Source of the DNA: Polytrichum commune
Lineage: Eukaryota > Streptophyta > Polytrichopsida > Polytrichales > Polytrichaceae
Direction of reading: 5' to 3'
NCBI GenBank assembly: GCA_950295325.1
Contig: OX485804.1
Coordinates: forward strand, 15,254,001 to 15,318,000
DNA length: 64,000 nt
Shown here: in pieces, positions 1,186 to 54,273 of the stretch
Position numbering within the stretch: the stretch's first letter is position 1
How the letters are laid out: every line of letters begins with the position of its first letter
Notes under the pieces: generated by a model
What the model was told of the DNA's origin: nothing
The model's database searches: none
What the model saw: only the letters and a program-made list of their open reading frames with translations
Position numbers and translations under genes: made by a program

Positions 1186-1187
1186 TA

Positions 1188-32161: not shown

Positions 32162-32214
32162 GGGGAGTGCTATCTTATGAGCGGTGAGCGATGAGCGGTA
32201 ATTTATGAGCAGTG
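32162..32214 (+). repeat. Left terminal inverted repeat of the MULE
   Basis: It contains CTATCTTATGAGCGGTGAGC and further GAGCGAT, GAGCGGT and GAGCAGT units. Its reverse complement is at 54210-54273. Confidence 0.85.
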
Positions 32215-32694
32215 AGGAAGATGAAAATTTTGGTAATAGGGCCACCAATATCCTATAACCGTGGAATTGTGGCCTTAAAAATGATGATTTTAGGGTTTAG
32301 TAATAAGAGGGTTGAGAAGGATAAACAACATGAAGTCCAAATATTTATTCATCACTAGTAGCACTAGACATGAAACTATCTTTTGCCTCGTCATCTATAT
32401 ATATTCGAGCACCTTTGCATTGCGAATTGATTTTGGAACTATAGCAAGATTCTTCATTTGGATCCGAATCTTCGATATTCAACATTGCAATTGCAACATT
32501 CACGGCATATGATGGGAGACGTGGGCTACGGCTTGGACTTCGTAGGAATTGTCTATGTGCCCAAAACGGGAGACATGTCCTCTTTCCAATCATATTCCTG
32601 AAATCAAATCGATGTAAATAATGTGAAGAAATAAAAATGAACCAATGAATTGAATGAAACGAATGAATTGAATAAAAATTTATTGTATCAAAAC

Positions 32695-35600
32695 TTACTC
32701 ACACTCAAATTCAAGCATCTCCTCATCCGAGAGGTCATCATCTTCTTTTGTGAGATCTTGTATATTCTCCTTAGATGACCCCTCTTTCAAAACATTTTCC
32801 AAAAGTGGTTTCAATATGTGCTCAAACATGTCATTATCACCCTCAAATGCAAGAAGATGTCTGCCACATGCGCGTGTTGCTAGGATAGAAACTCCAGTGG
32901 AACATGTCAAATCAACAACGCGTCCATTCGATGGTGTAAACAATTCAATAAGATCTTGAAAAAAACGCGGCGATTTTTGATATGGCCCCCTCCAAGGTCT
33001 TCCCGATTTTTGAAGAAGCACGTTTTTTTCATCCACAAAATTGAAAAGCAAGCTTTTACTTTTCAATCCAGTGCCAAAAAAATGGAGTTTGGTTGTCTCG
33101 TGGATTTTATGGTAGTAAAATCCCTTACCAAGACATGAGCCATAAATGCCGGAGTCTACAAAAAAATATAAATTGTATTAAAACTATATACAATGCAAAT
33201 AACACCAAAATAATTAAATAGAAACAATTGTGATGTGTTATACTTACGGTGTACGTTGGAGACTCCGGATCCTTGAACACTGTGTACGAATTGAGGCAAA
33301 TAAAAATCCTAAGAACTTTCATGTTGCCGTTGTGTAAGGTTGAATTCAAAACCTTCTTCGTTTGCATATCGATAGCAGAAAATACTATGAGGACGCCATC
33401 ATCAGACAAGGTGGACTTGCACAAGGACATTGTTGCAACCATCCAGTTCTTGTCATATTTATTCTAAAGAGGAATTTCAGCAGGTCTATTGGAGAGGTTG
33501 AAGTCAAGACCGTCCGGAAATTGCAGAAAAACCAAGTCAATGGCAAATGGAGTCGGACTTCCCATGACATGAAATTCGCGATTGTCTTTGAACTGAAATA
33601 CCACAACATATCACAATATAAGACATAAAATAAAATCCAAATGAAAGTAAGAATATTACAGAAAATACAAAATGAAGATTACTTACATTTTTAAGAAATG
33701 CCCGCCATTGGATCCACTCAGGAGGGCCTACTTCAACCCCTTCAGACTTGTTCTTGACAGCAGTAGATCGAGCAAAAGAGAGCGTGAGAAAGTTCTTCAG
33801 TATGAATAACTTTTTTCTCAAAACATTCGTTGGCGCACGATGAATAGCGTCATAGGTGCTGGAGTAATGTAATTCCAATACATCGCACCCGGATTTTGAA
33901 CTTTCGCCTCCAAGTGTATTCTTATCCAAATCATTGGAAAAAACAAGCAATTCTTCATGTTGTGAAATTTCCGATTGACCTTGTATTTTGGTTTCAGGAA
34001 TATATTTTCTCTTACGACGTTTTGTTTCTTTTGGTTCTGGCTCTCGAAGTTTAAGCTGCACAATTTGTGCTTGCAAAATTGCAGTATCACGAGGATCTAC
34101 ATTTTTGGCATCATTTATGTGACGGATTGTCTTCTCACTTGACGGACATGCATCCTTAGGTCAATCAAGATACCAACCACAATCCTCATAGTGTGGGAGC
34201 GACCAATCCAAACAAATCTCTGTAGTGAACATGCATGAGTCTTCCGCACCAGTGTCACGCCGATTTGGAAAAAAACGAGGTTCCCCTATAACGCATTTGT
34301 GCGGAATCAAAACATATCGGAAATACCTACACACAAAAATATTATGAGCCAAATATTGAATGAAAAGTAAAATGTAATGAAAAAATATCAAGAAATAGTA
34401 AAGAGTAAGTTGTACCTGTATAGAACACGCTTCATAGCAAGATCAATATTCGGTTGCTCATCCCAAACGTTGTGTTTTTTTAGTTTTCCGCTTTTGAATT
34501 TACGATAGAATATTGAATTGAAAGCCGCAAACTTCCAGGTTTGGATATATTCGGAGAGAGTAGGCACATCTGCAGGCAATTGAAGAGGAGATGAAATAAT
34601 ACTTTGAAGCTCTTCAATAGTTTTTTTCTCTAACTGTGCCCAATATGTAGACTTTGATAACCAATCATCAAGTGCAAAATTAGAGAGGGGTGATTTCGGG
34701 AAATGCAATGCATCTTTGTCAAATCTATTGCCATTCCAAAGCTTGAGCCATTCGACTTTGACATCTGGATCCACATTACTAACAACAACACGATGAAGTT
34801 TCTCTTGTAACATTTCAGGCACCGAAAATGAATCCCAATGGTGCTTAACTTCTTCAAGAAAAGCAGGGGTGAGGTTGATGTCAGCAATCGCTAGTTGTTT
34901 TGTAAAACTAGAAGACAACATTGCACGTTTTTTGTTGACAGCTGCGGATATTGCTTTAGAAACTCCTTCTGAAGTTCGTTCAAGAGGATGGGTTTCATTG
35001 TAAAGGTTGAGAACAATATCGCTAGCCTCGGCAAGTTCTTGCTGAAAAATCAAACAAAATACAAAATTAATAAGTACATATAGATGTGATGTAAATGAAA
35101 GATAAATAAACATTAAAAACATAGTAGGAAATGCTAGAAAATTTACACTATACATGTAATCAAGAAAAATTGGCCGCGTCAAAGAATACCAAGTTTCGAC
35201 GGACTTCTCCTCACATCGCTTATAACTTCTAGGATCCAGTTGTTTTTTAAAAGAAGTCAAAGGCATTGTGCCAATACTTTGCATCCGATACAAAGTATGC
35301 ACCAAATTGGTAGAAACGTGAGAGTTTTCTGTTGACCTGAAAAAATATTGAATTCATGAATTTAGGATGATATAATTCAAATAACAAAATACAAACCAGA
35401 ATAAATGAAAATAAAGAAGTAAGAGCATTACTTGTTGATGTCGTGCATAGCAGTCAACAAAGTTGGAATGTCATTAAGCTCGGGCGCCAAAATGATGGAA
35501 TCTACAAAGACATGACGCTCGTAATCTTCGGTATGCAAGCGGTCAATATAACTTTTCTAAGCAAAAAATTTGTGATTACCATCCCATATGAAGAACATCT

Positions 35601-36154
35601 TGTTCTTGTATGATGTAAATGAAGGATCGGCATCTAATTCAGTTTCAAACACCGCATTAGCTTGAGCCCAATTTGGGCTCCAAGATGCACGAACCTCGTC
35701 ATCCACAAATTGAAAATTTCCCTTAGAGTCGGTAGCCGATAGATAAAACACACGGTTACCATCACGATAACCATTGAAAAAGTCAGCCTCCAATTTAGTG
35801 ATGTCGCTTTTCAAAGCAGGACGCACAATAGGCATTGGAACCATGCGACATAAGGGTACACGCAAACGAGATTTCGGTCGAGCACGGATTGAGGAAATTG
35901 TTGAAGTGGAATTAACCTTTCGCTTGTCCGTAAGCTCCCATACTTTCTGTTGATAGGTTTTATTATCACCATCGTTGTCTTCATCGGAGTCAAAATCATT
36001 GATGGGTTATTGTAATTTTTTTTTTCTTATTGTTATTGTGAAGGTTTGATGAGATATCTTGATCATGATGAACTTGTTTGGATGGACGATCTTGAGTTGA
36101 GGTTTTTGTGGAATCATCATCCGTGGAAAGAGGAACTGATTTCTCCACATCCAT
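32695..36154 (-). pseudogene. ParB-like / DNA methyltransferase-like fusion gene, six main exons, inactivated
   Basis: The exons on the minus strand are 36154-35432 (its 5' boundary is uncertain), 35336-35147, 35041-34416, 34326-33687, 33592-33248 and about 33130-32695. Introns begin GT (GTAATG, GTAAAT, GTACAA, GTAAGT, GTAAGT) and end CAG or TAG, with matching phases. The first exon holds RPALKSDITKLEADFFNGY and WDGNHKFFA, which resemble the ParB/sulfiredoxin fold (GxHRxxA). The last exon holds GRPWRGPYQKSPRFFQDLIE and VVDLTCSTGV...AFEGD, which resemble motif X and motif I of beta-class (motif IV before I) DNA methyltransferases. AIDLVFLQFP sits where DPPY would be. In-frame stops occur at 36007, 35557, 34161 and 33464, with one frame change near 33065, so the copy is dead. 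The element context suggests an accessory transposon gene. Function is inferred. Confidence 0.7.
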
Positions 36155-36189
36155 TGTTTGGTCATAAATACAAACAATGACATAAATCT

Positions 36190-36690
36190 TAGAAATCTTC
36201 TTGATGTAGTATCTTCTGAAGATATTTGATTACATAAGAGAACATGCTTAAAGGTGTAGAGAAAAAACAGTACCTGTACCAATAGCAATACCAACACCAA
36301 CAGTAGAAGAACAACACAAAACAGGATAGCACCACGTCCAGCCAAACGAACAGCAACACGAGCTCCAGCAGTAGGAACAGGAACAACAGCACCAATAGCA
36401 CCAACAACAGCAGGAACAGCAACAACACCAATACCAGCAGCAGCCCCAACACCAGCAACAGCAGCACCAACAGCAGCAACAACAACACCACCAATAGCAG
36501 CAGCAGCACAAACAACAACAATAAGAACAATAGATTAGTATCTGAACTAATACCACCTAAACCAATAGGAACAACACTAGAAGTAGTGGCAACACATGAG
36601 CAAAAACAAGAGAAGAAGAGCAGCAATAGCAGCAGCCACCACAACAACAAAGAACCACCAACAAGAGGAAGAATGACCAAAAAACAATTT
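36190..36690. repeat. Imperfect (ACA/GCA/CCA)n trinucleotide tract
   Basis: About 350 bp is made of CAACA, CAGCA and CCAACA units. Long Leu/Val/Cys-rich frames on the minus strand and Thr/Ala/Pro-rich frames on the plus strand come from this composition. I do not regard them as genes. Confidence 0.75.
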
Positions 36691-36760
36691 AAGGTGTAAC
36701 TTTGGTAGTTTAAGTACTGTGTGATTAGGGTACCAGCTTACCCTAAACAACTAGGGTAGA

Positions 36761-38026
36761 CCCTGTGCGTTAACGCACAAGGTCTATGCCCCTAACTTTG
36801 AGGCCTACCAAAGTTGCGGGTATAAACCCTGTGCGTTAACGCATAGGGTCTACGCGCCTAGCTTTGAGGCCTACCAAAGTTGCGGGCGTAGACCCTGTGC
36901 GTTAGCGCACAGGGTCTATGCACCTGACTACATATGTATGAAAGTTGCTAGCGTAGACCCTGTGCGTTAACGCACAGGGTCTATACCAAAGGTTTGAATT
37001 GTCTGGAATTGGTAGATTTGCCAAAACTTGTAAAATCTATAAATAATACTAATCTTGTCCGAAAAAAACAAAATATTGTAAATTATCTAAATCTCCGTGG
37101 CTACAACTTTCTCTAATATTTTTTTTGTGTTTGATATCGTTTTCTTTACTCATTCTTCTATCTATTTCATTATTTTGGCCACCTCATAGATTTTGGATTT
37201 CTGGGCACAAAAAAACATTTCACTATTTTTGGTCATTTTTTAGCTCCTATCACATACTACATGAATATCTCAGTAGGCATATTGCTCATTTTTTACATTC
37301 TAACCCCATTTTGAACAAATTTTTAGTTTCAACACTTTACATGACGTTCTCAATTTATACAATAGCTATTTGTTTTATTTTTAGACATTCTAAATCGCTG
37401 GTACATACCCTGTGCGTTAACGCACAGGGTATTCCATCCTAAATTTTAACCTTCTAAGTCACTGCCTAATACCCTGTGCGTTAACGCACAGGGTTTTCCT
37501 CCTAACTCTTTACTTTCTAAGTCGCTCCCTAATACCCTGTGCGTTAACGCACAGGGTTTTCCCTCCTAACTTTTAGGGTATCTAAGTCGCTCCCTAATAC
37601 CTTGTGCATTAACGCACAGGGTATTCCATCCTAAATTTTAACTTTCTAAGTCGCTCGTACATACCCTGTGCGTTAACGCACAGGGTTTTCCATCCTAACT
37701 TTTAAGGTATCTAAGTCGCTCCCTAATACCCTGTGCGTTAACGCACATGGTATTCCATCCTAGATTTTAACCTTCTAAGTCGCTTCCATATACCCTGTGC
37801 GTTAACGCACAGGGTATATGGGAGCGACTTAGAAACCCTAAACAACCCTGTGCGTTAACGCACAGGGTATTAGGTTGCGACTCACAAACCCTAAACCACC
37901 GTGTGCATTAACGCATAGGGTATTAGGGAGCAACTTACACAGCGTAAACAACCCCGTGCGTTAACGCACAAGGTATTAGGGAGCGACTTAGAAAGCGTAA
38001 ACAACCCTGTGCGTTAACGCACAGGG
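36761..38026. repeat. Array of 15 copies of a 22-bp palindrome
   Basis: The unit is CCCTGTGCGTT followed by its own reverse complement, with GTTAAC at its centre and usually one more paired A/T outside. Copies start at 36761, 36827, 36893, 36958, 37408, 37472, 37535, 37600, 37664, 37729, 37793, 37846, 37899, 37952 and 38005. Most are perfect and the others have one to four changes. Spacing is 64-66 bp in the first group of four, about 63-65 bp for the next seven and about 53 bp for the last four. Linkers are also repeated (CTAAGTCGCTCCCTAATA), and their orientation flips around the copy at 37793. Between the two main groups (36980-37407) lies AT-rich unique sequence. The array lies between the divergent genes of the MULE, so it may be a set of protein-binding sites. 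Confidence 0.9.
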
Positions 38027-38156
38027 TTTTCCGTCCTATCTTTTAAGCTTTCTAACTCGTTGTTAGAAATGCTTTTCGGGTGGGCCGCCGATATTCCAAG
38101 GATTCACTGCTCTCATACCATCGACAAATGTATAAAAGTGTAAGAAAAAATGGTAT

Positions 38157-38280
38157 AGACATCCACCTATGGATGCGAGTTGTCTAAGGAGACTGATGTT
38201 TCGGTCTGCTCCAACTTGGGTTCGAATCTAGTTGGTTGCATTGACTGGTGCTATCCCCTAATGAGCTAGTGGTTAGACAA
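38157..38280 (+). mobile_element. SINE with tRNA-Leu-like head, 5' part (split by the CACTA)
   Basis: Sequence GATGCGAGTTGTCTAAGG (A-box region) and GGGTTCGAATCT (B box, 38218-38229) resemble the split RNA polymerase III promoter of a tRNA-Leu. The tRNA-like head is followed by TTGACTGGTGCTATCCC, shared with the second copy at 53593-53776. The SINE breaks off at 38280, where the CACTA starts, and resumes at 48940. Confidence 0.8.
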
Positions 38281-41200
38281 CACTATAAGAAAATCCTGTT
38301 TTTTGTGACGTAAAAAAAAACGGGAGTGCGCGTTCACTTTGACATGGAGGTTCTTCTCTTGGACGTTACCTAAAATCCGTCATGTCAGACAGGAGAAAAA
38401 CGCGTCGTGGACATGCGAAAACATGGGGAATTTCAGCACGTTTTTATGTGACGTCACATAAAACATGGTGTTCCATAGTGTCCACGTGAAGACACGTGGA
38501 CGCCACCGGCATGCCACGCAAGCATGTTTTTTGCGGGCAGTGCCACGTCGGCACGCTTTTTTTTCCGCCCCCTCGGTGACGTGGATGGCCTCGTGGACCC
38601 TCTTGAGATGACGTGGAATGCGATTAAAAACTGATGTGGCATTCGCTGTTGCTGACGTGGACATTGCATTATGTGGTGATGTGTGCTGTTACCGACGTCC
38701 TCTGCGATACGAAAATGTCACATGAGACATTTTCCTCGACGTATGCATGTATTTTTTGGGTGTTTTCGGGGTGACTTTTAGTTTTCTTGGACATCCTTTT
38801 TGACAGTGGGATGTTATGTGTGACATCAAATGGGGCATTACAAATTATGGGGATGTCCTCTGGCCAAAACCACAGCTTGTTTGGGAGTGATGATGCCGTT
38901 TTCAAGCTTAGCCCGCCTTGACGTGGCTGATTGCCTCAAATTCTCAAACACATTACTGACATCAAGTTGTTTGGCTATTAGCAGGACCAAATATCAGATG
39001 CACGTCACTTATACCATCTACGAGAACAAACACTGACGTCAACTGTTCCACCAGACAGTCGGAACAGACACAAAGAACGCGTGGAACAAATGTACACCAA
39101 TGCTTTCCAATTCCGTAAATGCAACGTTTTCATTGATACAACATATTGCAACCAAGAGGCTGCATTTACACATCAATCGCTAGTTGCCCAAAAACTTAAA
39201 CATTGTCCATGATCGAGGCATCCATGTCTATAGTCGCGAGTCTACACCTCCACGACTAAGTGGATAATTCATGAGCACTCGAATGGAGAGCCGCGTCGTT
39301 ATTGAGAACGTCCACTCATTTCTTCTTTTGTATCTGTGCCTTCGTACTAGTCCCCACCTGCCCCATTCCACCACCATTCACAAAACCGCATGAATTACAT
39401 TAGTGGTCATCCGAACATGAAATGGACTCACACGAACGACGTGACTATATTCGAGTGCTCCACACTCCTCCTGCAATCATGCAAGCAATGTAGGCATGCA
39501 AACACTAGTTCCCTCACCTTCGCAAGATTTTGGGGAGGTTTAGGCAAACCAACCGCTTTTGGTGCACCGAGTTTGGCCATTGAGGATTTCGCTTGTGCGC
39601 TTCTACCCGCACGGCGGGGTCGGCCACCTGACTCCTCCGGTACGGGCACCTCATCCTGTAATAGCATTTCGCATTAGTATTCGGAGGTTTCAAATTATGG
39701 TCGTTCTGTTCTGCGATAATTCAAACTGTCAAGGCAAACGTCCAGCCTAATGTACATGTTGACATCCTCAATGACACCACGAAGAACATGCCAGACAAAT
39801 ACATGAAGGTATAATTTTTTAAACGGCGATGAGAGGGTTTCCAGTATGTCTAATATGGGTGGGTGTTACTTGATGTTACCTGATCCAGAGATGCAATCTT
39901 TTCAGGCACGTCCGCATTGCCGGATATCTCAGGGTGTCCTTCCTCGACGTCTTCCATAGCTTGCACTGGCACTTCCTCGTTGGTGGGTTCTACAGGGTCA
40001 TCAATTACAGGTGTCTGTGTCGTTTTTTTCGGCATTTCGAGAATGTCCTCAATTATAGACGCGATAATGGTTTCAGAGCTGGGAGGCACTGCTTCTACGT
40101 TTGTGACTGCATCAATCGCAGCATCCTCGGAGACGTCGCTCGGGACAGGAATCGCGGACACCACACGCATGTCTGCACCGCCCACCGCGCTGATAACTGG
40201 GGTGGGAGCTTATTTCTGTGCCACCATCACCAGATCCTCCGTCGTTGACGTCAATGCCGAAATATCGAGCATCTTCGCAGACGATGAAGGCTCCGTCATG
40301 CTATCAATGTTAGTCGGATGTTTCTGACTCTGATTCTGAAGAATCATTCGCATCATGTCCTCCATGCGCTTGTTTGAGGCTGCCACATTCTCTCCAAGGC
40401 GTGTGACGCTGCCCTCCAAATCCGTCACTTGAGTGCGCATCGACTCCATTTCCGAGCCATGATCGGGACGCGCTCGGCGCTTTTCCTCCTGTATGCGTTG
40501 GTACTCTTTGGCAACCTCGGCGTCAACCTCCGCATCGTACGGTGCCCTGTTCTTCAACATCGCCTGCATGGCACATTAAAGTCATTACGGATGAAAGGGG
40601 ACGTCAACAACAATGCGTTCCAACAGGTGCAGGTCCCGTGACGCCTTTGGAAGTGCCATGATTAACATCGAACATCAACTCAAACAACTAGAGTTACATT
40701 GCCGGCTCATCGGACGTCTAAGTAAACGTGTTGGATGACATCTGTTGTCGACATTGACATTGTAGGGGATAAGGGCCATCACAGATTTATAAAGATAATT
40801 GCAATATTGTCAGCCATGTCAACATAGACATAGTGGCACTCTTACCAGACAGGAGACGATCTCCCTTTCAATAGCTTTCAGTTGAGCTGTGGTCGATCCT
40901 TTCCCTTTTGAAATTGAGCGCATGTGCTGAGACTTCAAATGCGCAGCCTCGGTGGCGCACATACCTACAAGTGTTTTCCAATGCTCTGCATCCACATCGG
41001 CTAGTTTACCCGCATTGTTGTCTATGAGCTGGTTTAACCTCCACCGGGTGTTGATGAGTACCTTTGTTATAATAGGCCGCATTCACTTCTCGCACACTTT
41101 GTCACAATGCCCGCACATCTCCCAGTCTGCATGCCGGACATACACGTCAATGCCATCACATTCACTTCACAAGCGACCAACACTGGGTGCCCACACTACA

Positions 41201-42200
41201 CCCACGTTAGAAAGGGTACAAACTAGTATGTCACCACAAGAGAGAAAATTGATATCATCGACGTCCCTATGGACGTTGATAGCGATTGTCGAGCGTTTCA
41301 GTACACATGTCCACAAAAACGCACGGACGTCCTGTTCGGCATCCACTCACAGATTGTCAGCATAACAACTATGTGCTAAATACATGTCCACCCTGACGTC
41401 AGCGAGAATGTTATGCCTGCCTACATAGACATACACCCTGTTGCTCATGTCCAGAATGATGTTTGGTTGCACTTAAAATGTCAGATTCGGGTTTCACATC
41501 GCAAATTAACGCGACACATGCATGCCAAAAAATTGATGTGCAAACCTTACCTGTGTATAGGCGTTTGAATAATCGCTTCCTCTCGTGCCGTGGCTGGCCT
41601 TCCCATCTTGTCGTGGGATCCAGGTCCTTTGCATACTTCTTGATGTCGGCGCACAGGACAGCCTTCATGGCGCCAAAAGGTTGCCCTTGCGCATCCAGCT
41701 CCACACGTTTCTTCAAGGCAGTGCTCCCCCCTCCCTTACGTGTTGGTAGTGGATGTGATGTTTCAATCCCATCACTATTCTCCTGATCGCCGTCTGATTC
41801 CGTGCCCGAGTTGGTTGGGTATCCTCGGCTACAACAACCACATTCCACAATCAAGGAATTTCCAGGTGCACACATATGCGACTGCCCACTGAGCTTGAGC
41901 AGCCACATTGCAACCAATTACTGCCCCTATGAATCATACACGCAGTCAAGAGCATGGTCGAGCAACTTCAGAGTTCAGGAAGATTACCAATCACGATGTT
42001 CAAGCTGGTTGAGTGTGAGAAATGGCCATCTGAGGGTTCAGAGTACAAAAAAACTACCCGTCACACGTGAATTGGTTGAGTGAAAGAAATAACAACCTGG
42101 ATGTTGAGACTTTCTATTGTCACCCATTAATATATGGACCACAACAACGTGGTCTAATGTTTGAGTCGTCCTACCTAAACCATCTTGAAATGGGTTCTTA

Positions 42201-42367
42201 AAGACTGCAGATTTGTTTTCTTGGTTTTCCAGCTGCAATTTCAAGACTTTGGGGGCATGTTATATACCGCTGGAAAGATATTTTCAATACCTTTCCAACG
42301 GTATATAACATGCCCCCAAATTCTTAAAATTTCAGCTGTAAAACCCACAAAACAAATCTGCAGTCTT
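42201..42367. mobile_element. Tourist-like MITE nested in the CACTA
   Basis: The 167-bp element begins AAGACTGCAGATTTGTTTTC and ends with the near reverse complement. TTA flanks both sides (42198-42200 and 42368-42370), the TSD of PIF/Harbinger elements. Its arms are about 80 bp and nearly perfect, with a central GGGGGCATGTTATATACCG/GGTATATAACATGCCCCC hairpin. It lies in an intron of the TNPA-like gene. Confidence 0.85.
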
Positions 42368-42484
42368 TTAGTGACTGCAGATCAGGGTGGTCAAAAGCTC
42401 ATGGTCCCATAACCGTCGTCAAAACCCCAAGTTGCAGGTATAAAGGAAAAAATTCATGGAGCTCCAGGGAGCTGGAGCGTGGCG

Positions 42485-42515
42485 TGGTTTGTGTTTGTGT
42501 TTGTGTCTCTGTCTC

Positions 42516-42546
<31 letters not shown>
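42485..42546. repeat. Compound GTGTTT/TGTCTC/GTTGTC microsatellite
   Basis: A run of TTTGTG, TCTCTG and TCGTTG units in the TNPA-like gene. The Asn/Asp-repeat frame on the minus strand comes from it. Confidence 0.7.
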
Positions 42547-42547
<1 letters not shown>

Positions 42548-43543
42548 CTACATTGATCCAAAATTGTGCATTCTTCTGCCCAATTGAACTGGTCGAACAG
42601 GCGCGGACATCGCGACGATGAAGACTGGTTGTGCTCTACGCTAGCATCAACACCAGGAGGAGGAGAAAGACCCACTTACCTCCAGGATTGCTCCGGCACG
42701 TCCTCAGCCGCATCCTCCTCCGATGATGATACCTCGATTATGCGGCGGCGTCTTGCCGGGGGTGAGCCACGCCTCCCAGCCACATGCCGCGGGTCCTCTC
42801 TGGCCTTGGATCGCCGCTCTCCAGCTGCGCGCCTATGTTCTACCAATGTTGCTGGACACATCTCCTTGCGCTTCCCAGTGCGATCCCGTGTCCGCAGCAT
42901 CTTGGACACCCAAAAGCAACATAGCGCGTCGGAAAAGCAACACAAGGGCGTGGGAAGGCAGCGCAGCGCCGTAGGGAAAGCAACACATCGGCGTTGCAGC
43001 AGACACCACAATGGAGACTAGCGAACGTAGGTAAGAGGATCTATGCACCTCGGCATCGGAGAAGACCTATGGCCGACTGTGACCCTATGCCCAACCCACT
43101 GGAGGCCATACATGCACCTAAAACCGGGGGCTGCCGCGTGTCCGCATGCGGGCTTCCCAGTGCCAGTGGCCGAGAGCGGCGAAAAATTTCGCCGCACAGC
43201 AAAATTTGAACTTGACCGTGACCTAAATTGTGATGCGTGCATATGAGATGGAAGATTTACCTGTTTTGGAACTGGGTTGATAGCGATGCTCGATGACTCA
43301 GTGGGTGTTGTGAAATTTTCACTCCCAAAGAAGTTGAGCAAGCGTGAGCAGCGGCGACGGTGTGCACGTTGGGTTCTTTGAATTGTGTTGGGTTTTTGGG
43401 ATGGCATCATTGCATTCAACCACCAAAGTGGACAACACTGCAGTGGCCTCGGAGTCATCCGCATCCACCCTTTGCGGATGTTGTGATGTGTCTATAAAAC
43501 GGACAACCCTACCAGGCTTTCGTGTTGAACGCGACACCGCCAT

Positions 43544-44150
43544 GCTGCTAAGGGATGTTCAAGCAATGAGCGTACAAAGGTGAAGCCGCAACACTTAGGG
43601 TTTAGAGAATGTCGGCGAGCCTTCTCAGGGTCCTCTGGGGCATCCACTGCCTGGAATACCCTCTGGGACACGTGGGAAAATGTCAGTTACATTGTTTTTT
43701 TACTGGCGTCGTAGATACCAGTGTTTTCTTGGACGTCATGTAAGACACCCAATGCGACATGTGCTTAATTCGAACACTGTGCGCTCCCCATTGTGTGCGG
43801 GAATGAAAGATCCAGGTCATCGATGTGACCATTGTGGTTTCGATGTTCTGCAACAGTCAAATCCCTCACATGAGTGTGTATGGAACACACTGCCGTGTAG
43901 TGTGTGACCTTCATTTTGGTGTCCAGGAAGATGTCACAATTGACGCCGACAGATCAACAGCAATGTCCCCATGGACATTCTCAGTGACATCCACCCTGGA
44001 AGAGACACTCCGCATAGTGTCAACGAATGGTGTCCTCTGTTTATATCAATGCTCATGCGCAACACGACCACGCGGAGACCTTGCGGAAGCGCTGCACGGT
44101 GTGTAACATCGGCCCAGTGAGGTAACATCTTCCAATTCGGGACACGCAAC
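43544..44150. promoter_or_regulatory. Intergenic region between the two divergent CACTA genes
   Basis: About 600 bp separates the ATG of the TNPA-like gene (43543, minus) from that of TNP2 (44151, plus), so it should hold both promoters. It contains several ACGTCA/TGACGT-like and TGTCCA motifs also seen near the element ends. I could not identify a convincing TATA box. Confidence 0.4.
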
Positions 44151-47100
44151 ATGGGTTCGGCTGTGCGTCGTGGTGCAACCATTCGTTTGACGGACGATGG
44201 ACGCACACTTTGTCACGTGCCAATAGGGGATTTGATACTTCACACGGAGCTCCGCGTGGCGACAGAGAACAATGTGCACACATTTAGATGTCCTTGCAAA
44301 GACTGCAAGGGTGGACGCAGAAAAACCATACAAGTTATACGGCAACACCACGCGGCAGTTGGCCGTGATCCATTTCTAACCAAGTCTTTACTAGGCGGTG
44401 ACCCCGTCGATGGATACCCACCGTCTGGAATGTGGGTGGAGGACGTCTGTTGTGACAACGACGTTGTAGAAGACATCCCTTCGAACACATTACCTGAACC
44501 CGTGGACGCCGACAACGGGGCACTTCCCCCACCCCTCCTGGATGAATTCCATGAAGTTGAACGTCAGGTGCTGGAGGCACTGGGCAGAGGGGATGCACTC
44601 CACGAAGAGGCCGTAGCTGAAGGACGTTTGCATATGGAGAACGAGGAAGACGGCGACATCGAAGATGAATTGGATGATTTGTATACGGAAGCCACGACTC
44701 CAGTGTACCCGGGTTCAAAAATGAGTGTTGTGTCCGCCACGATCATCATAATGAACATGTGCTCGGTGTTCCGTGTGAGCAATACATTTACCGATGAGTT
44801 GTTCCGATTTTTGTCTGGAGACTTGTTACCAATGCCCAACAAGTTGCCCAAAACTCATTATGCGGCTCGGAAGAGCATCCGTCGACTTGGATTGACCTAC
44901 AACAATATCCATGCATGTCCCAATGGTTGTATTCTATATGACGAAGAATATGCAAATCATGATTTATGTCCCAAGTGCACGGCGCGACGATGGCTGGATG
45001 GCAGCAACAACATTCCCGCAAGAGTAATCCGTCACTTTCCCCTAATTCCTAGGTTGAAACGGATGTGGCGCTCGTCTGAGATAGCGCGTTTATTGACAGG
45101 TCACACCAAACACGTCAGCAGTGATGACATCATGCGTTCTGTGGTTGACAGCCCTGCATGGAAGCACATCAACAACGACGTCGCGTTTGGCAACTTTGGG
45201 CGTGACGATAGGAACATGAGACTGACTCTCGCTTTGGACGGAGTGAATCCTTTTAAACTAAACAACACCAACTGGTCGACGTGGCCGGTATTGATTTTGA
45301 TTTACAATTTCGAGCCATGGTTGGTGACCAAAAAGTTTTTTATCTCGTTGTGTATATTGATTTCCGGGAAGAAGTCGCCGTCCTCTTCAAACATTGATGT
45401 GTTTATACGACCGCTTTTGAAGGAGCTACAAGAGCTTTGGCATGGTGTTGAGGCTTTAGATTTCTCCCAACCACAAGGGAGTCGCACTTTCACTTTGCGT
45501 GCCATACTTATGTGGACCATTTCCGATTTTCCCGCTTTCGGCCTCATTTCTGGTCTTATTTGTAAGGGCTACAAGGGGTGCCCTTGTTGTGGACCAAACA
45601 CCGATGCGAGGATGGCAAAAACCGGAGACATGCTTCCAAATCGGAGCATTAGGGGCACCAAAATTGTTTACGGCGGCATTCGTCGTTATTTATCCCGTCA
45701 CCATCCGTATCGCCGGAATAGGAGATTCAATGGGGAGGAAGAGGAACGTCCTAGGCCAAAACCGATGTTGGGGGATGATATCATTCGATACGCAGCTTGG
45801 TGCGATTCATACCTACAGATGGGCGGGAGAGAGAACGGACCCAACGATCCTATGCATGTCACAGGCGTCAAAAGACTTAGTGCGTTGTTCGAGCTGGAAT
45901 ACTGGCAGGTGATTCCCGTATAACAATTAATGTTTGCACATCCTGTCCACAGATGTTGAAGTGGACATCGCGACGTCCGTCTCAGTCACGTAGTTTGTAA
46001 TGATGTCCACCAAGACATCTGACCTGACGCTTCAGGCCATGATGATTACCAGCTTTGCTCATACGGATAGATGAGGCATGCATGTGTCCATGAAAGTGCT
46101 GGCAATGTGTCTGAAATTGCCCATGTGTCTTGTGCAGCACCTGCTAGAGCGTCACATCCTCGATGTTATGCATTGTGAGAAGAATTTGTGCGAGAACTTG
46201 TTGAAGACATTGTTTGGAATGAATGATAGTCATGGAAGCAGGGTCGACGCGGAGGACCTGGGAATACGCGAAGAGATATGGTTGTAACCCCCGCGGCGGC
46301 CACAGGATGGGTACTATATGCCGCACGCTCCCTATGTTTTTAGGCCACATGAACGCGCGGAGTTTGTTGCAATCGTCTCCAATATTCGCACCCCCACAAA
46401 CTACGTGGGTAGCATTCACAAGCGCCTAGCGGATGGGAAATTGCAGTACATGAAAACGCACGACTACCATGTTCTCATGCAACAGGCAAGTCAAGAAGGA
46501 CACCCTCGGGGATGTCAATGTTGTAATACAATGTATCAATGTGTCATAGGAGTATAGGCACACACCGCATGATGTCTATTGAGACCTCATTCCAAACATG
46601 GTTGACGCGTCAACATCCTGGGGGACGTTATCCTCAAACTGTTCTCGCACTTCATGTTCTTCATGACGCTCCTAGATGTTCTGTCTGATGTCCAGGGAGG
46701 CGCGACACAATCGTTCTCTGACTTTCTAAATACATGTCTTCCAGATTCTTCCAGATTCTTCCAGTGGCTATACGCAACCTATTGGATGAAAGCGTGCGCG
46801 TAGCTATTATCAAACTGAGTAGAGTGTTTCAGAGACTATGCGCCAAGGAGGTGAAGAGAGGCGACAAGGAGGGCACAATGTTGGATGTGATGATGGCGAC
46901 GTGTGTCATGGAGAAGGAGTTCCCTCCCACATTTATGAATGTCATGACGCATCTTCCCATCCATTTGGTGGAGCAGTTGTACACGTGCGGTCCAGTGCAT
47001 TGTCGATGGATGTATCCCATAGAACGGTACATGAAAACGTTGAAAGATTACGTTCGAACATTTGCACATCCGGAGGGTAGCATAGCGGAAGGTTATCAAA

Positions 47101-48041
47101 TGGACGACACGCTTGGTTTTTGCACGGAGTACATGCATCAGTACAGAGGAACTACACATCGTGTATGGGACGCTGAAGAGGATGCAACCATGAACGATGA
47201 GATTCTCCGTTGCAACTCACAACAAAAGCGAAAGATGTCCGACGAATTCCGCAACTATGCGCACGCTTTTGTTTTGGACAATGCGTCGTCATTGGAGCGT
47301 TGCAGAGAGTTAGTGGAACCCATACTTACTTTACTTCAAGCCTCGATGATATATACTGTCACCCAATGCAAAATACCTGTGCCATGTCAACTGTGACATG
47401 CAGCAGTGCATGAGGATGTGTTGGACATGATGTCCCAAATAACATTCTTTCTGAGATATACGCGTCACATGTGATATTGCAGATGATGGCCATCACACTT
47501 TTGCATCACCTTTATATACATGCAAGGGCCATTTCTAACCACAATTTAATGGCACACAACCTTGTGCAGGGAGTTTATGGCAGCTAGAGTTTCGCGTTGG
47601 AAAGAGAGGGAGGCCTTTCGGAAAATGTGTCGCCGCCGGCATCCAACTTTGGCAGTGCGGTATCCGTTGGAACTACACGATCTTCCTCCCTTTGCAACAT
47701 GGTTGACGTCGCGTCTGTCACGTCAGCGTTCCTCCGGCGAAGTTGTGGACGTCGATGTTGCGCAATACGCACAACCTCCCGAGCGATATGCAATCTCACA
47801 CCGGAAAATGTATGCGTTTGGCATGCACTTCCGAGTACGAGGTGCTGAGGGTGGCCTCGTCACGCGCGATTCATGTGTGGTGGCCTCATTTACACGACAA
47901 ATACCATGGGGCTTGAGAAATGGGCGACCCATAGAGACAACCGAGGAGTATGTGGGCTACATCGACGTGTCCGCGGAGACGTCCTTTGTGTTCAAACAGA
48001 CGGATGGTCATAATTTTCTAGGCACGAAGATTTTCCAGTAG
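44151..48041 (+). pseudogene. TNP2-family transposase of the CACTA element (probably inactivated)
   Basis: Exon 1 (44151-45908) starts at ATG 44151. It encodes a Cys motif FRCPCKDC (C47, C49, C52) typical of the transposon-associated N-terminal domain, and then the TNP2 core: CPNGCILYDEEYANHDLCPKC-type zinc region, LALDGVNPF with catalytic-type D363, WPVLILIYN, IDVFIRPLLKELQELW, WTISDFPAFG and GCPCC. The junction CAG-GTGATT to exon 2 (46138-46485; LLERHILDVMHCEKN) is phase 0. Exon 2 ends at CAG-GCAAGT, a GC-type donor. Exon 3 (46755 to about 47310) carries a DUF4218-like stretch (HLPIHLVEQLYTCG, YPIERYMKTLKDYVR). Exon 4 (47570-48041) carries the C-terminal HRKMYAFGMHFRV region. A TAA at 46285 interrupts exon 2, and the exon 3-4 junction is unresolved, so the copy is probably not functional. 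The original role was the CACTA cut-and-paste transposase. Confidence 0.82.
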
Positions 48042-48049
48042 CAGTTGCT

Positions 48050-48340
48050 CGTCTATATGTGGAATGTGGCCACGAGATCCAACGTGGACACTCCCACGTT
48101 TGGCGCATGTATTTTTGGAATTGTGAGAGCAATGAAGTGCCATATTTTGCTTGTAAAAGTCTTCCCTTGATTTCCTCGTGTCTAAATGTACAAATATATA
48201 ACCTTTGAAATCCTTTGAAATCAAAATTAACATATGACAAACTAAATTATAAACAAGTGAATGAGAAAACATTCTTTTTGTAGCAAAACTTGAAATTTCA
48301 TAATTTTTCTATTTTAATCCAAAGGGCATTTTTCCACTTT
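48050..48340. other. Subterminal non-coding part of the CACTA
   Basis: AT-rich, with no gene. Confidence 0.4.
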
Positions 48341-48393
48341 AATTAATTATTCGGCTAACATGTGTTGAACCAGCTATATATGAACCTACGGTA
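48341..48393 (+). repeat. 3'-end fragment of the 29254-30203 TIR family inside the CACTA
   Basis: AATTAATTATTCGGCTAACA, ACCAGCTATATATGAACCTA and CGGTA match the right end of the element at 29254-30203, with a 4-bp TATA insertion. The left terminus is absent. Confidence 0.75.
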
Positions 48394-48939
48394 TGCAATT
48401 GTGGTCCCGCATGTCTACCTTATGGCAATTAGAGAATGACTCAACCACCCCCGTGTTTTTTGGCTCATCCGCTATAAATATTTGAACGGAATTCGGGAGA
48501 ATAACATGCATGCCAAGAACCATATTGATGCACCGTGAGAAATTTATGTGGCATTCCCTCAAATTTTTGGGAACAAGTTTGTCTTTTATAGCCAACCACA
48601 CATAGTTGAACATTCTCCAACCTTTTTTTTCCCGGGCAGCACTTTAAGTCTGCCCGCCGCAACTTTATACATGCCGTGGATAGACCTGTGGGGATGACGT
48701 GGCGTTAGCGGCCTTACAAACGGCCTGACGCAGGACGTCAGCATGTTTTAAATGACATCCACAAGAACATGGCTATCCTTCCTGACATCGCCATGTCCTG
48801 GCCCATGATTTGTCATGTTTCACGCAACGTCCAATAAAATCTGCAATTCTGTGGGCGTTTATTGCCGAACATAGTGACATCTCGGAAGACATCACTCGTT
48901 TCCCCAAAACGACCCCAAAAACGCGGGTTTTTTATAGTG

Positions 48940-49003
48940 CAGGAAATACAGTAGGTTGGATACATAGAAGGTTTTCCTACGCAAGTGTGCATAGATCCTT
49001 CTA
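48940..49003 (+). mobile_element. SINE, 3' part (continuation after the CACTA)
   Basis: Starting CAGGAAATACAG, this 64-bp segment aligns with the part of the 53593-53776 SINE that is missing at 38280 (CCTACGCAAGTGTGCATAGA against CTACGCGGATGTGCGTAGAA). The two parts add up to 188 bp, close to the 184 bp of the uninterrupted copy. Confidence 0.8.
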
Positions 49004-49091
49004 AATAATTTTTTTGTTAAATTGACTACTTTGAACAAACTAAAGCATATGCCCAATAATATCGTTGATTTACGTTGAGCTGACTTACGTT

Positions 49092-49358
49092 TTTGTTTGT
49101 TGTCTTCTTTGAACTCGTCTTCATTTCCGACTCCGATATACGATCGTCTAATTGTGCACCTTCATCACCCTCTATCATATCAAAATCCAGTGCTTTCACA
49201 GTTTCTAATATCGTATTCAACATGTTTCTTTTCCCTTCCTTGTTTGCATTCATCTTTCCTACACTCAGGCCGAACCTCTTTTTCTCAGAAGTAAAATACA
49301 AAGCTTTCCTACGCCTTCTCTTCGGCCTCACGGGTGTTCTCTCTACATCCTCCACCAT
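49092..49358 (-). pseudogene. Probable first exon of the ParB-methyltransferase-like gene
   Basis: The ATG at 49358 starts an 89-codon frame with a basic patch (RPKRRRRK) and an acidic/Ser-rich tail, ending at a textbook donor (AAAAAC then GTAAGT at 49091). The exon ends in phase 0. Phase-0 acceptors are available just before the frame that continues at 36154, so an intron of about 13 kb would now span the palindrome array, the SINE and the CACTA; before those insertions it would have been about 2 kb. The basic patch could be a nuclear-localisation signal. Linkage to the downstream exons is inferred from strand, phase and position within the element. Confidence 0.45.
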
Positions 49359-49771: not shown

Positions 49772-52700
49772 ATGGCTACCATTAGAGCTCATGGATCTTT
49801 TGTTCCCTTCATTTTGCCACTTCAAGATGATGGTCATGTGAGTGTTTCAGAGGATTTACTTAGTTTGAGATTCAACCTCCAGATAGGCTCCATGTATTTA
49901 GAGCAACATATGTACTCTGCAGATGGAGAGGTATATGAAACGATTTTGGTTCAAAAAACCAGAACAGATGTTGGTTTTATGTGGATCTTAGGACCTGGTT
50001 CATATAGGGTGATAGGTCTTTCTGAGTCTCAGATGCAAGCTTCTACTGTCATATTGACAAACGAATCCGGTACATCCACAGTTCAAATTCCCTCTACCGC
50101 ACATGTTAAGATAGAACCCCTTGATGATAGTGTGTTTGTGCTATCGGATTCAGAAGATGACATTTGTGCATCTGTTGATCTTTCAAACACATCGCCGTTT
50201 CCATTTGAAGGTGTTCATTCTACTCCTTCGCAACTTCCTATACATGTATCAAAATCTCCTTGCGGTCTTATGTACAAGAGGGTGGTTCCCCTCATCTTAC
50301 CCTCTTAACGTCCTCCACTATACCCTTCACCTTCATCTACAGGGTTGACTATAGTTGATGCCTTGAAGCTGACAAAGTCAAGAAAAAGATCAAAGTCAGA
50401 TCTCGCATCCATTGATTTTGATAGTATAGATGTTCGTGATGTCAAGTACTTACCATCTTCTTTTAATGGTGATATTTTGTTTCTCTTACCCCCTGTGGCA
50501 CTTAAAGTTCCAAGTACGTATGGCCGCTCAATGGACGGCATGGACAAGATGTGCGACGGTCACCCTTGGTGCACCACCAAAACCACCAATATCCAAAATG
50601 ATTTTGGATTGTCCTTCCGGCGCTCTACTTGTGCTGGTCATCTCCAATGTCCTAATGACTACTGTGATTACATGAATCGCAATGGGGGCCTCCGGAACAA
50701 CACTGAATGGGCCGGTTCAACTCCTCTCCCATTTGTTGTGCGTAATATTCCTCCCACTAGGTCCACTGTCGAGTGTAAGGTATGTCGTTCTATACCTGTG
50801 TGCATTGCTTTATGTCATGCTCGAATCATATACATCCACTCCACATCTGTTGGAATGTCCAGGGCTTGCATTCATATTGGTGTATATGATCACCCTGTGG
50901 CCAATGGCACATGCCGTGAGTCATTGGACATGGCATATCAGTGCGTTGCAAATGAAGTATTGAAAACACCCATAGCCAAAAATTCAGCCATAGTTATGGC
51001 AGCAAGCAAACAATTCTTGGCCGATTACCTTCTCAAATCTCCTGCAAATGTCGAAGGCCATCACTTAGTTGGTTCATCCCTAGAGGTCGTCATGGACAAA
51101 TTCAGCACTCTTGCGTCTCCGAATTGTCGTAACTTTGTATCTGGATCAAAGCGTTTTTTGCGTAGTGGAATGAGAACTATGGATAGTATTATGGAACTCA
51201 AAAACCACTTTGCTTTCAAGTTCGTCCATGGTAGTCGCTTTCCAGGGCAGTCAAAGGACAAAGTGTTTGTTTTCAAGATGTCTGTAGACCTTCCAGGTAG
51301 TGGTATGGAGCTTGTGAAGAGGATGCAAGTCGGTGGGGACATGGAGAATTCATGAATTGTATTTGACCATGTCAAATGTTTGAAGGACTGGACGACCTTG
51401 GCTTGCCATGTGTACGACAGTCGATACTGTAAAGTGTTGACTATTGTGTGTTGTGATATGCAATCTGAAGATGGTGCAACACAAATTCTCTTTTGGGAAA
51501 ATTTGAATGCTGTCATGGCAAAAAATGGTGTACCAAACGTAAACTTCAAAGGGTTCATGGCTGATAGTGCTCAAGCTAATTGGAATGCGGTGAGGGCAAT
51601 TTACGGGGATGGTGATCCAAGTCTACCCATGGTTGCACGTGAGCGTACATGTCTTTTCCATTGGTCTGCAAGCTTGGATAAGGTGACCCAAAAGTATATC
51701 AAACCATCCTTGCAATTTCAATACAAACAAATATGCAAGGATTACAAAGACGCGAAAACAATGGACGACGCTGAGACTAAGTACCATGTGATTCGTTCTT
51801 GGTGGTTGTCATCTGGAGCTGCCTCGGAAGAAGGCATCCTTGGCCTTTCAGAGTGGTTAAGATTTTGGCACTTTCGTTATAGACAATGGGATGGTCATAT
51901 GCTACTTGTAAGTACATATTAAACTTCATTATTCACTATCATTCAATATCTTGCCACTGATATATAATATATCTTATGTTTTTCTTATCCTTCTATTTGT
52001 GTGTTGTTCATAGGATATGACAATAGAAGAGCGTGCGGAAATGCCAACATGCAACGTTGCAGAGACTGTACACAACAAGTGGCTCCAACAGTCCGGCAAC
52101 AAGATGACTTGTTTATATGAAGCTACGGTGGACGACATGATCCGTGCCTTCATGCAAATTGAAAATTATCAGACATGGTTGAAAGGGGGGTATGATGGTA
52201 AAGGTCCTGATTCGGCATCCTTGAAACTCAAAGCGGCTGCCAGGTGTGGAGATCCAAAAATGTTGGCCGATGCCATGAAGTCTTATCCAGGGGCAGAAGA
52301 CGTCAACACTAGAGATTGTGCATTGGAAGGGTCAGAGCTCTTTGGTTCCACCAAATGCAAACTCAACCTACCACCGGGTGCTGATTGTGACTCTCATCGA
52401 CCCGACAAAGTGAACTATTTCATTCCTCGTCCTAACACCCGAGCAACTCGTCAACGCATAGAGGAATCGTTGAGTTCTGCAATTCATGGTGTGGCTCATA
52501 CTACATCCGTGTTAGAGACAGATTGTCTTGTTTCCAAGTGGCACATTGCAAGATTACCACCCAACTCAGCCAAACGATGTTGGGCACTGCAGGCCATCAC
52601 AGGGATTATGTGCAATGCCAAAGTCGGGACTGGGAAACATGGCACACCTGCTCCAACATACAAAAGGCTCAGGAAGGAATTTCGCTCTCCCAACAATGTG

Positions 52701-53381
52701 GAGTATGAATTTTGATTTTGCCCTGACGACATCAAACGTTGTGTGAGTGGCAGTAAGAAGAAATATGTGTTGGACTGGCCTATAGTACCCAACACGTGGC
52801 CGGTGAAGATAGGTACCAATCTATCGCAAGAGGAGGTTTTGGCACTTGAAGATGTTGGGTTTCAACTAGAGCAGAGGGAGGCATTGTCCCCTCATCGTTG
52901 GCTTTCAACAATCGCAACTCTCCCCATCCCTCATTCGCATTTTTCTATGCCACCAAACCCGGACGCCCACCCTACATTCAGGTTTGGGAAGACAGTGCGT
53001 TGTAATCCAACAGCACCGCTAGCGGATCACAAAAACAAATGGGAGAGCGCCGGACTCATGGAGGGTTACTATGTGGTTGGGGTCACTGCCATTCCATATC
53101 CGGGCTTTGGAGTGATAATCAACATTGTCTCCAAGCAGGATATCACCTATCATGTCACAATTGGCGACATCCCGCATTGCACATGCCCGGATTTCACGAA
53201 AATGTCCTCTCATACATTGGGAAAGAAAGGAAAATGGGTGTATTATAAACATCTTTATTATGTGTTTAGATTTTTGTGCATGGTGGATTACGAGAGTGAC
53301 AAGTTCATTCATGCACCTACATATACCTATAACGAGGTCATGCGACTACTTGAACTTGCTGGTATTGTAGAGTGTGAATAG
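49772..53381 (+). pseudogene. Mutator-like element transposase, inactivated
   Basis: Exon 1 starts at ATG 49772 (MATIRAHGSF). A short intron probably ends at 50341 (CATCTACAG). Exon 2 reaches 51907 (donor GTAAGT) and exon 3 runs from 52014 (acceptor TTCATAG) to the TAG at 53379-53381. The protein shows an N-terminal Cys/His-rich zinc region (HPWCTTKTTNIQND, HLQCPNDYCDY, CKVC...C), then the MULE DDE core (VYDSRY, QSEDGATQ, FKGFMADSAQANWNAV, TCLFHW) and a C-terminal SWIM-type finger (HCTCPDF...YYKHLYYVF). Two in-frame TGA codons (51353 and 52713) interrupt it where related proteins, as I recall them, have Trp. The third SWIM ligand is Tyr (53244) instead of Cys. It is divergent from the ParB-methyltransferase-like gene in the same element. 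Confidence 0.8.
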
Positions 53382-53592: not shown

Positions 53593-53776
53593 GAGAAGAT
53601 TCTACGCACATCCGCGTAGTAACGTCTTCTTGGTATCCGCCTATAGATTATTCCTGCTTTATCACTAGCTCAATTTGGGATAGCACCAGTCAATGTAACC
53701 AACCGGATTCGAACCCGGGTTGATACAGACCTAATACCAGTCTCTTACACAACTCGCATCCACAGGCGGATGTCTC
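53593..53776 (-). mobile_element. SINE with tRNA-Leu-like head, intact copy
   Basis: On the minus strand it reads GAGACATCCGCC, GGATGCGAGTTGTGTAAG (A-box region), GGGTTCGAATCC (B box, 53704-53715), TTGACTGGTGCTATCCC and GGATGTGCGTAGAATCTTCTC. It is the uninterrupted relative of the SINE split by the CACTA. It lies inside the MULE, between two copies of a duplicated 3' transposase segment. Confidence 0.82.
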
Positions 53777-53885
53777 AAAACCTAGTAGTTACCTACATAT
53801 TGACTATTTCTAATATCTAATTTCCTTTCATTTGTAGATTCTGGGCCTTAACTCAACCCGTGAGCAGTTTGAGTGGCTCACAATT

Positions 53886-54090
53886 ATGGCACCTACATGT
53901 ACGTATAATGAGGTTATGCACCTACTTGAGCTTGATGGTGTTGTGGAATGTGAGTAGTTGTGCAAGTGTTGGTTGTAACTACATGTATAAGGATGTCAAT
54001 AAATGACATGTATTGGTTTGGATTATTATAATAAAAATCAGCAATGAATTGAAAGTGTTTTAAATGATCCATGGAAATAGGGCCCTTTCA
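53886..54090 (+). repeat. Partial duplication of the MULE transposase 3' end
   Basis: GCACCTACATGTACGTATAA through GTGGAATGTGAGTAG repeats the last 23 codons of the transposase plus about 120 bp of 3' UTR (53311-53480), with about 15-20% divergence. It encodes APTCTYNEVMHLLELDGVVECE against APTYTYNEVMRLLELAGIVECE. The SINE sits between the two copies. Confidence 0.8.
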
Positions 54091-54209
54091 CTTGTGCTTC
54101 ATTTAAAATATTGGCAATTTACAATTGAAAATATGCAATTAATTTGTCAAAATTTTGGTTGTGTACCCTAAACCCGTGTGTCTTTACTAAATTTGGAATC
54201 ATTGCTCAT

Positions 54210-54273
54210 ATGTTACTGCTCATTGCTCATGTGTTACTGCTCACCGCTCACCGCTCATAAGATAGCTTCCCTC
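54210..54273 (-). repeat. Right terminal inverted repeat of the MULE
   Basis: Read on the minus strand it gives CTATCTTATGAGCGGTGAGC followed by repeated GAGCGGT/GAGCAGTAACA units, matching the left end. Confidence 0.85.

Follow-up and report, generated by a model that had tools for sequence, protein, structure and literature searches.

What does a large DNA transposon of the moss Polytrichum commune carry beside its transposase, and what could that second gene do for the element? The 64,000 nucleotides analyzed here (the window; assembly GCA_950295325.1, contig OX485804.1, positions 15,254,001 to 15,318,000) hold at 32162–54273 a single DNA transposon, bounded by inverted ends and a perfect target duplication of 10 bp, with two genes in divergent orientation, one transposase-like and the other, which we call the accessory gene, encoding a predicted ParB-like fold and a methyltransferase-like domain. 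We found that this gene, together with an array of palindromes mostly specific to its family, has been exchanged between elements with closely related transposases, and we propose that its product may recognize its own element. An earlier reading made from the letters of the window (the sequence-only reading) had pointed to flanking repeats, matching inverted ends, two divergent spliced genes and the motifs GNHK and DLTCSTG, and these observations held up, the two motifs lying in separate exons of the accessory gene. The flanking repeat GGTTAGGCAT occurs exactly twice in the window, abutting the element on both sides; one of 100 shuffled windows contained it at least twice, and from this and from the separate 10-bp duplications at other copies we rejected chance as its origin. 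The terminal inverted repeats (TIRs) are composed of GAGCGGTGAGC-like units and pair over 48 nt with 88% complementarity (32169–32216 with 54219–54266). The window copy measures 22.1 kb between its ends, against 11.6–11.9 kb in five complete copies (E1, E4, E5, E6 and E7), because it contains a nested stretch of ~11 kb (roughly 38.0–49.07 kb) with CACTA-type transposase open reading frames (ORFs), which has no counterpart in E1, E3 or E5; these ORFs matched Transposase_21 (E = 4.6e-62) and DUF4218 (E = 1.7e-32), and the palindrome array adjoins the insertion. The divergent layout with introns is present in the window copy; both genes are interrupted by stops there, and function was therefore judged from other copies.

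The window element is a decayed member of a high-copy family. With a 301-base query from its left end we obtained 40 scored places (of 461 candidates) at ≥97% identity, and whole-genome protein searches, which score the best candidates only and so give lower bounds, yielded at least 150 methyltransferase-exon, at least 116 transposase and at least 150 ParB-like-exon matches. Seven of the 116 transposase-bearing places, picked for long open frames, were fetched as copies E1–E7; five (E1, E4, E5, E6 and E7) are flanked by 10-bp duplications, each of a different sequence, and the right end was not found in the fetched stretch of E2 and E3. After merging, a methyltransferase locus lay within 10 kb of 72 of the 116 transposase matches and was divergent in 70 of those 72, where ~0.017 methyltransferase loci per transposase would be expected by chance within 25 kb. 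This linkage rejects the idea that the accessory gene is an accident of one copy, and contradicts the possibility, left open by the sequence-only reading, that other copies never include the minus-strand gene. Seen from the accessory gene, a ParB exon lay within 25 kb of 126 of 141 methyltransferase loci and a scored window-type transposase within 25 kb of 76; the gene is not found mainly outside such elements, yet 65 of the 141 loci had no scored window-type transposase within that distance among the matches listed. Across eight copies, seven of them chosen for open frames, the ratio of nonsynonymous to synonymous substitution rates (dN/dS) was 0.08–0.42 over the six main accessory exons versus 0.35 for the transposase, and in three copies (E4, E5 and E6) the measured exons of both genes were free of counted stops (the per-copy stop counts include gapped codons, which the pairwise counts exclude). 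The accessory gene is under purifying selection. Copies of the D1 and F5 accessory types share the divergent layout and have transposases that by eye resemble the window type. The D1 element (L018:4544–5011 and 6098–6600; C4 near 45.968 Mb) also has an apparent second accessory-like gene on the plus strand, with middle and methyltransferase-like parts, downstream of the D1 transposase and additional to the divergent gene.

In copy E5 the accessory gene comprises seven exons with GT-AG borders encoding 1074 residues, not counting a probable first exon. This upstream open frame, with the basic motif RPKRRRR and an in-phase GTAAGT donor, was found in 8/8 copies (dN/dS 0.50; 24 gapped bases in the window copy), and in E5 it ends in AAG directly before GTAAGT, in phase 0, the next exon beginning GACCAATCAATGG in frame; it is probably the first coding exon. 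If so, the palindrome array and, in the window copy, the nested insertion would lie within the first intron. Twenty positions of the ParB-like domain, which the exon after this open frame encodes, are invariant across 19 sequences drawn from several families, among them the G, N and W of GNHR..AW. A structure model built from a trimmed and more diverse alignment (A2) reached a predicted local distance difference test (pLDDT) of 85.9 and a predicted template modeling score (pTM) of 0.83, and in a Foldseek search with this model the first 24 rows were all ParB, Noc, PadC or sulfiredoxin (Srx) entries; as that list was unanimous, we accept a predicted ParB/Srx fold for the N-terminal domain. VIA-align placed 93 residues on Caulobacter ParB at a root-mean-square deviation of 2.1 Å with a Z of 8.4, barely above the 7–8 that is typically the tool's best without a clear match. 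As separate observations, contigs C10, C12 and C23, which carry matches to the Pfam ParB_N profile, resemble bacterial contaminants of the assembly, and a Pfam match to Phage_tube_C in two of the 19 A2 members (best E 4.2e-4) is probably due to chance.

The C-terminal domain is, by sequence comparison, homologous to beta-class N6/N4 methyltransferases. Among four spliced domains the Pfam profile PF01555 scored above its 26.7-bit cut-off in D1 (32.5 bits) and below it in W (17.4), F3a (21.8) and F4 (21.6); the phage family phrog_3008 matched the F4 domain at 1.1e-8, a PDB sequence search matched the DpnA methyltransferase (E 4.5e-8), and hhalign against 13 phage enzymes gave a probability of 98.2 (E 5.6e-14) over 71 columns around motifs X and I, with controls at 0.4% and 0.0%. 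The motif order is IV - X - I, as in beta-class N6/N4 amino DNA methyltransferases, and 35 of 636 phage records matched at least 80% of the D1 domain. The catalytic motif IV, [DNS]PP[YFW], was absent from W, D1, D85, F3a, F4 and X, i.e., from all five lineages read, its place being taken by DLPEG in D1 and F4, by DIPEG in D85 (itself related to D), by DVPDN in F3, by DYPDG in X and by QFPDG in W; of 18 phage relatives, 17 carry [DNS]PP[YFW] and the remaining one DLPY. Motif I retains its first glycine in F3 but has another residue there in W, D1, F4 and X. We call the domain methyltransferase-like because motif IV is non-canonical in every lineage read; for the same reason an active methyltransferase was lowered as a main reading, and the domain is more likely a module for S-adenosylmethionine or DNA binding, or for dimerization, than a methylase. 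The sequence-only reading had described the second gene as ParB-methyltransferase-like, a description that is supported, with the qualification that the catalytic motif IV is lacking.

Searches with D1 and F4 ParB queries revealed further relatives, roughly 120 of the best 150 being 51–55% identical to F4, and we distinguished nine lineages (W, D, F3a, F3d, F4, F5, X, Wsw_C4 and Wsw_C2) with at most 65% pairwise identity. Upstream of the ParB-like exon these genes have arrays of ~20-bp palindromes built as 9-NN-9, whose sequence is mostly family-specific: CCTGTGCGTTAACGCACAGG and TTTGGGTCGNNCGACCCAAA in W, GTGTCTCGGNNCCGAGACAC in D, a variant of GGGGTTCGG in D72a, ATCCCACGGATCCGTGGGAT in F3a, CCACGGGTGTTCACCCGTGG in F3c, AATTCTGCANNTGCAGAATT in F4, AGGCCTCGGATCCGAGGCCT plus four of the F3c type in F5, GGTGGCCGTTAACGGCCACC in X, GCATCTCGGATCCGAGATGC in Wsw_C4 and GGGTTTCGGTACCGAAACCC in Wsw_C2. 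A cluster of at least three palindromes was present in 20 of 25 upstream regions, across the nine lineages; the 25 were picked across identity bands and are not a random sample. Shuffles of the first 19 of these regions gave none with more than three palindromes, and 20 control stretches (14 overlapping windows and six shorter loci of 3.3 kb) reached a maximum of three, from an AT repeat in two overlapping windows. Exact sites in the genome numbered 490 (W), 1310 (D) and 143 (X), against 0 for each reversed-pattern control. Among the first 50 sites of each type, a W-type ParB exon lay no more than 1.7 kb from 10 of 11 W-type clusters and 17 kb from the eleventh; three of five D-type clusters lay at a D-type ParB; and none of 26 X-type clusters lay within 25 kb of a W-type ParB. 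The palindromes extend to other non-coding parts: TTTGGGTCGNNCGACCCAAA occurs both upstream and at the transposase intron in 7/7 E copies, being absent from that intron in the window copy (one degenerate copy overall) and in the C6 element described below (zero overall), and D and D72 types occur both upstream of and inside the accessory genes (D85, D72a). CCTGTGCGTTAACGCACAGG, TTTGGGTCGATCGACCCAAA and GGTGGCCGTTAACGGCCACC are candidate target palindromes for the accessory proteins. At C1:461704–482718 a W-type element appears to be split by 13 D-like palindromes (468609–471928) that have a uniform TA center, steps of about 138 bp and no D-type ParB match; this stretch is perhaps a nested element of another family.

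That gene and array move together is seen where the transposase stays nearly constant. An accessory gene lay within 25 kb of 91 of the 116 window-type transposases, 80 of W type and 11 F4-like, all 11 divergent; as this count used 71 of the 150 ParB matches to the F4 query, the true number of transposases lacking an accessory gene may be lower than the 25 left over. One of those 25, the C6 element, was read over its full length. Its ends are those of the window family, the flanking 10-bp duplication (GCAATACAAC) is its own, and its DNA is 93% identical to that of E5 over the right 4.1 kb, after which identity toward the accessory gene falls to 85%, then to 71–75%, and then ends, with ~170 bases of the left end also matching. 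The ParB of C6 shares 41% identity with that of W, motif IV of the methyltransferase-like domain is DYPDG, and the array comprises 11 X-type palindromes and none of W type. X-type palindromes also lie at a distance of about 3 kb from three others of the 25 (C1:46511111, C1:65023648 and C3:34399897). Gene and array are shown by these elements to have been exchanged between elements with closely related transposases. Palindromes as fixed sites of the transposase are disfavored by C6, with its same ends, close transposase and other palindromes.

The sequence-only reading knew of no description of such a pairing, but the combination has been reported before. According to the relevant passages of PMC12477816, the brown-algal (Ectocarpus) transposon Sola1-1_Ec32 encodes on the opposite strand a protein of 1104 aa in which ParB-like and N4-cytosine/N6-adenine (N4C/N6A) methyltransferase domains are combined, and similar proteins occur in transposons of green and red algae (citing Iyer 2011 and Petroll 2025). 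As those passages describe it, this arrangement resembles ours in being a large DNA transposon with an accessory gene opposite the transposase that encodes about 1100 residues of ParB-like and methyltransferase-like composition; the moss protein, at 1074 residues in E5 and divergent in 70 of 72 cases, fits the algal type by description. The algal carrier elements there differ, being Sola1 and, in red algae, giant EnSpm elements with accessory genes, and the same passages mention neither palindrome arrays nor cassette exchange. Open PMC literature, at the level of listings, yielded no report of palindrome arrays or cassette exchange with transposon ParB-methyltransferase genes, and the words ParB, methyltransferase and accessory were not found in a paper on Mutator evolution (PMC6446971). 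The pairing of a transposon with a ParB-methyltransferase-like gene is therefore known; the family-specific arrays and the cassette exchange are new as far as these listings show.

A second comparison, to the VANDAL elements of Arabidopsis, had been drawn by the sequence-only reading and is strengthened by the palindrome arrays. VANC proteins, in the accounts consulted (PMC5735166, PMC10398659), bind short motifs in tandem arrays in the non-coding parts of their own VANDAL family and cause element-wide loss of DNA methylation, with targets that change between families. To judge from these accounts, the moss elements share with them an accessory protein, motif arrays in non-coding parts and introns, and motifs that differ between related families; the VANC21 motif is given as the 9-base non-palindrome YAGTATTAY (PMC5735166), as opposed to the palindromes of about 20 bp here. 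The moss protein has a predicted ParB fold and a methyltransferase-like domain, so that its likeness to VANC is one of element layout and motif arrays. Fungal DNA transposons that carry TET/JBP genes (PMC12730594) likewise have cargo of a DNA-modification type, although for oxidation of 5-methylcytosine instead of a ParB-methyltransferase-like protein. A further comparison is with the ParB-parS partition systems and the ParB-methyltransferase fusions of phages, with which the moss system shares a predicted ParB/Srx fold before further domains and clustered palindromic sites, and from which it differs in having no sequence-level match, a nuclear transposon as its setting, 9-NN-9 sites and an altered motif IV. 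The site parS has 16 bp. Three viral contigs (L055–L057) in our searches carry ParB-N and methyltransferase fusions, the ParB part being recognized by eye; annotated relatives exist.

How might such a gene serve its element? We lean, by a little, toward the view that the accessory protein acts as a VANC-like self-recognition cassette, binding its own palindromes and keeping its element from being silenced. A group of large transposons resembling Mutator-like elements (MULEs) would carry, divergent to the transposase, a cassette consisting of the ParB-fold and methyltransferase-like gene plus a 9-NN-9 array, mostly upstream of the ParB exon and also in other non-coding parts. A dimeric, site-specific binder is suggested because a ParB fold, further domains and clustered palindromic sites come together; from the palindromes the protein might coat the element and shield only its own element from host silencing, and a cytidine triphosphate-dependent spreading of the ParB clamp would explain protection across the whole element. 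The protein might in addition regulate the promoter region that the two genes share. Its binding to the palindromes, its spreading and its anti-silencing effect are inferences. A stronger form, which we offer tentatively as a possibility, is a nuclear partition-like system in which a ParB-fold clamp with an altered methyltransferase-derived domain spreads from parS-like arrays and shields its own family, gene and array being an exchangeable specificity cassette that gives mutually blind identities to one transposase. The algal passages name no target, whereas here candidate targets are readable in the DNA and differ between families; as the palindromes change with the accessory gene on a nearly constant transposase background, self-recognition could be tested directly. 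If true, a VANC-like strategy would have been invented a second time, out of ParB and methyltransferase domains of bacterial type, and the many natural pairs of protein and motif could show what determines specificity.

Several observations weigh against the self-recognition view. The ParB-like domain was placed by none of Pfam, tblastn against phages and plasmids, PDB sequences or hhalign (probability to ParB 2%); the Pfam ParB_N profile (PF02195) matched the genome on small contigs only and at none of the accessory genes; an earlier structure model from a poorer alignment had a pLDDT of 37; and in the Foldseek search nothing fell below an E of 0.001, the best being 0.019. The Z score given above is likewise marginal. 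On the side of the arrays, five of the 25 upstream stretches (F3b, D65a, D65b, D63 and Wsw_C5) had none, F4 has only three palindromes, a count that two of the 20 controls also reached, the F3d palindromes are imperfect, two of the five D-type clusters listed have no D-type ParB match nearby, and 23 of the 26 listed for the X type have no scored window-type transposase in their vicinity. Palindromes could, moreover, ride along as passengers of the adjoining accessory gene in a swap, a view weakened by the presence of matching subtypes in non-coding parts of an element that lie apart from each other. In the stretches lacking an array (L020, L025, L026, L029 and L070) the palindromes perhaps follow another geometry or lie at a greater distance, or the gene is controlled differently; the 23 X-type clusters, each of one to six palindromes with a frequent spacing of 210 bp, may belong to additional families or to shortened derivatives.

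Each of the other explanations takes up part of the same evidence. It is unlikely, in our view, that the palindromes are chiefly operators by which the protein tunes or represses the transposase gene, with silencing uninvolved: the arrays do sit between the two divergent genes, and KorB, one of the structural matches, bears an entry title that names it a transcriptional repressor, whereas palindromes of the same type at the transposase intron and inside the accessory gene lie off the promoters. We hold it less likely still that the protein is an active N6A/N4C methyltransferase whose mark, on the palindromes or the whole element, keeps activity or guides the transposase. The beta-class homology, with its PF01555, hhalign and DpnA scores, speaks for such self-methylation, as does the proposal of this role by the Ectocarpus authors for their own protein (in the passages of PMC12477816 cited above); motif IV, altered in all lineages read and canonical in nearly all the phage relatives, speaks against it, and so does the replaced first glycine of motif I.

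The arrays could finally be neutral minisatellites or hairpin-forming repeats grown by slippage, beside a gene that does something else. Their regular spacing of 32, 64 or about 105 bp, and longer, indicates tandem growth, as this explanation expects, and the number of copies in such tandem arrays is therefore little proof by itself; the five regions without an array also fit it. The argument for the arrays is instead that separate families each hold a clean palindrome at the same place. In different families the near-perfect 9-NN-9 palindromes are 79–98% identical as against 30–80% in their flanks, a comparison with a built-in bias, since each site had been selected by how well it matched; in E5 the same palindrome recurs in unlike sequence contexts; and no control had a cluster above three. 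Taken with these points, neutral growth seems to us improbable.

The class of the transposase is a separate matter. The sequence-only reading called it a MULE transposase, and what stands of this are the 10-bp duplication, of a length within the 9–11 bp of MULEs, found in the window, in the five copies with both ends and in C6, and the TIRs, the same ends recurring in other copies. The Pfam MULE domain PF10551 had no match in the window-type transposase, the nearest of 150 scored PF10551 places being 21.7 kb from any of the 116 window-type transposases; hhalign against genomic MULEs, with very thin profiles, gave 0.1%; and the SWIM zinc finger PF04434 reached E = 0.076–0.094 (12.7–13 bits) against a cut-off of 19.6. 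The label thus draws on the duplication, the TIRs and motifs recognized by eye, and is not supported by Pfam.

Table 1. Parts of the transposon in the window copy, in window positions.
Feature	Position	Strand	Basis
Left target-site duplication GGTTAGGCAT	32152..32161	.	
Left TIR, GAGCGGTGAGC-like units	32162..32216	+	Inverted-repeat pairing and copy comparison
Accessory gene exons 2-8, decayed: in-frame stops, damaged acceptor	32345..36163	-	By-eye comparison with intact E5
Tail exon of accessory gene	32345-32597	-	
Methyltransferase-like exons of accessory gene	about 33248-33592 and 32699-33155	-	
Helical middle exons of accessory gene	about 33687-35336	-	
ParB-like domain exon of accessory gene	about 35432-36163	-	
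Array of 14-15 palindromes CCTGTGCGTTAACGCACAGG, between both genes	36757..38025	.	
Nested insertion, approximate limits, foreign to element proper	38030..49071	.	No E1/E3/E5 match ~37.8-49.07 kb
CACTA/EnSpm-type transposase ORFs in nested insertion	44121-45923 and 46722-47396	+	Transposase_21, DUF4218
Probable first coding exon of accessory gene, basic, RPKRRRR	49089..49358	-	Inferred from E5
Transposase-like gene, decayed; intron near 51.9-52.0 kb	49772..53381	+	
Right TIR	54219..54273	-	
Right target-site duplication GGTTAGGCAT	54274..54283	.	

Two further observations concern neighboring or unrelated sequences. An integrase-like ORF of a long terminal repeat retrotransposon lies, by eye, near the D1 accessory gene (L017, about 1066–1829, plus strand), and LEAFY-type matches, which mark a streptophyte host, were noted at three places in the genome; one of them, with an Asp that would fit a moss, reads GLDYLFDLYEQC.

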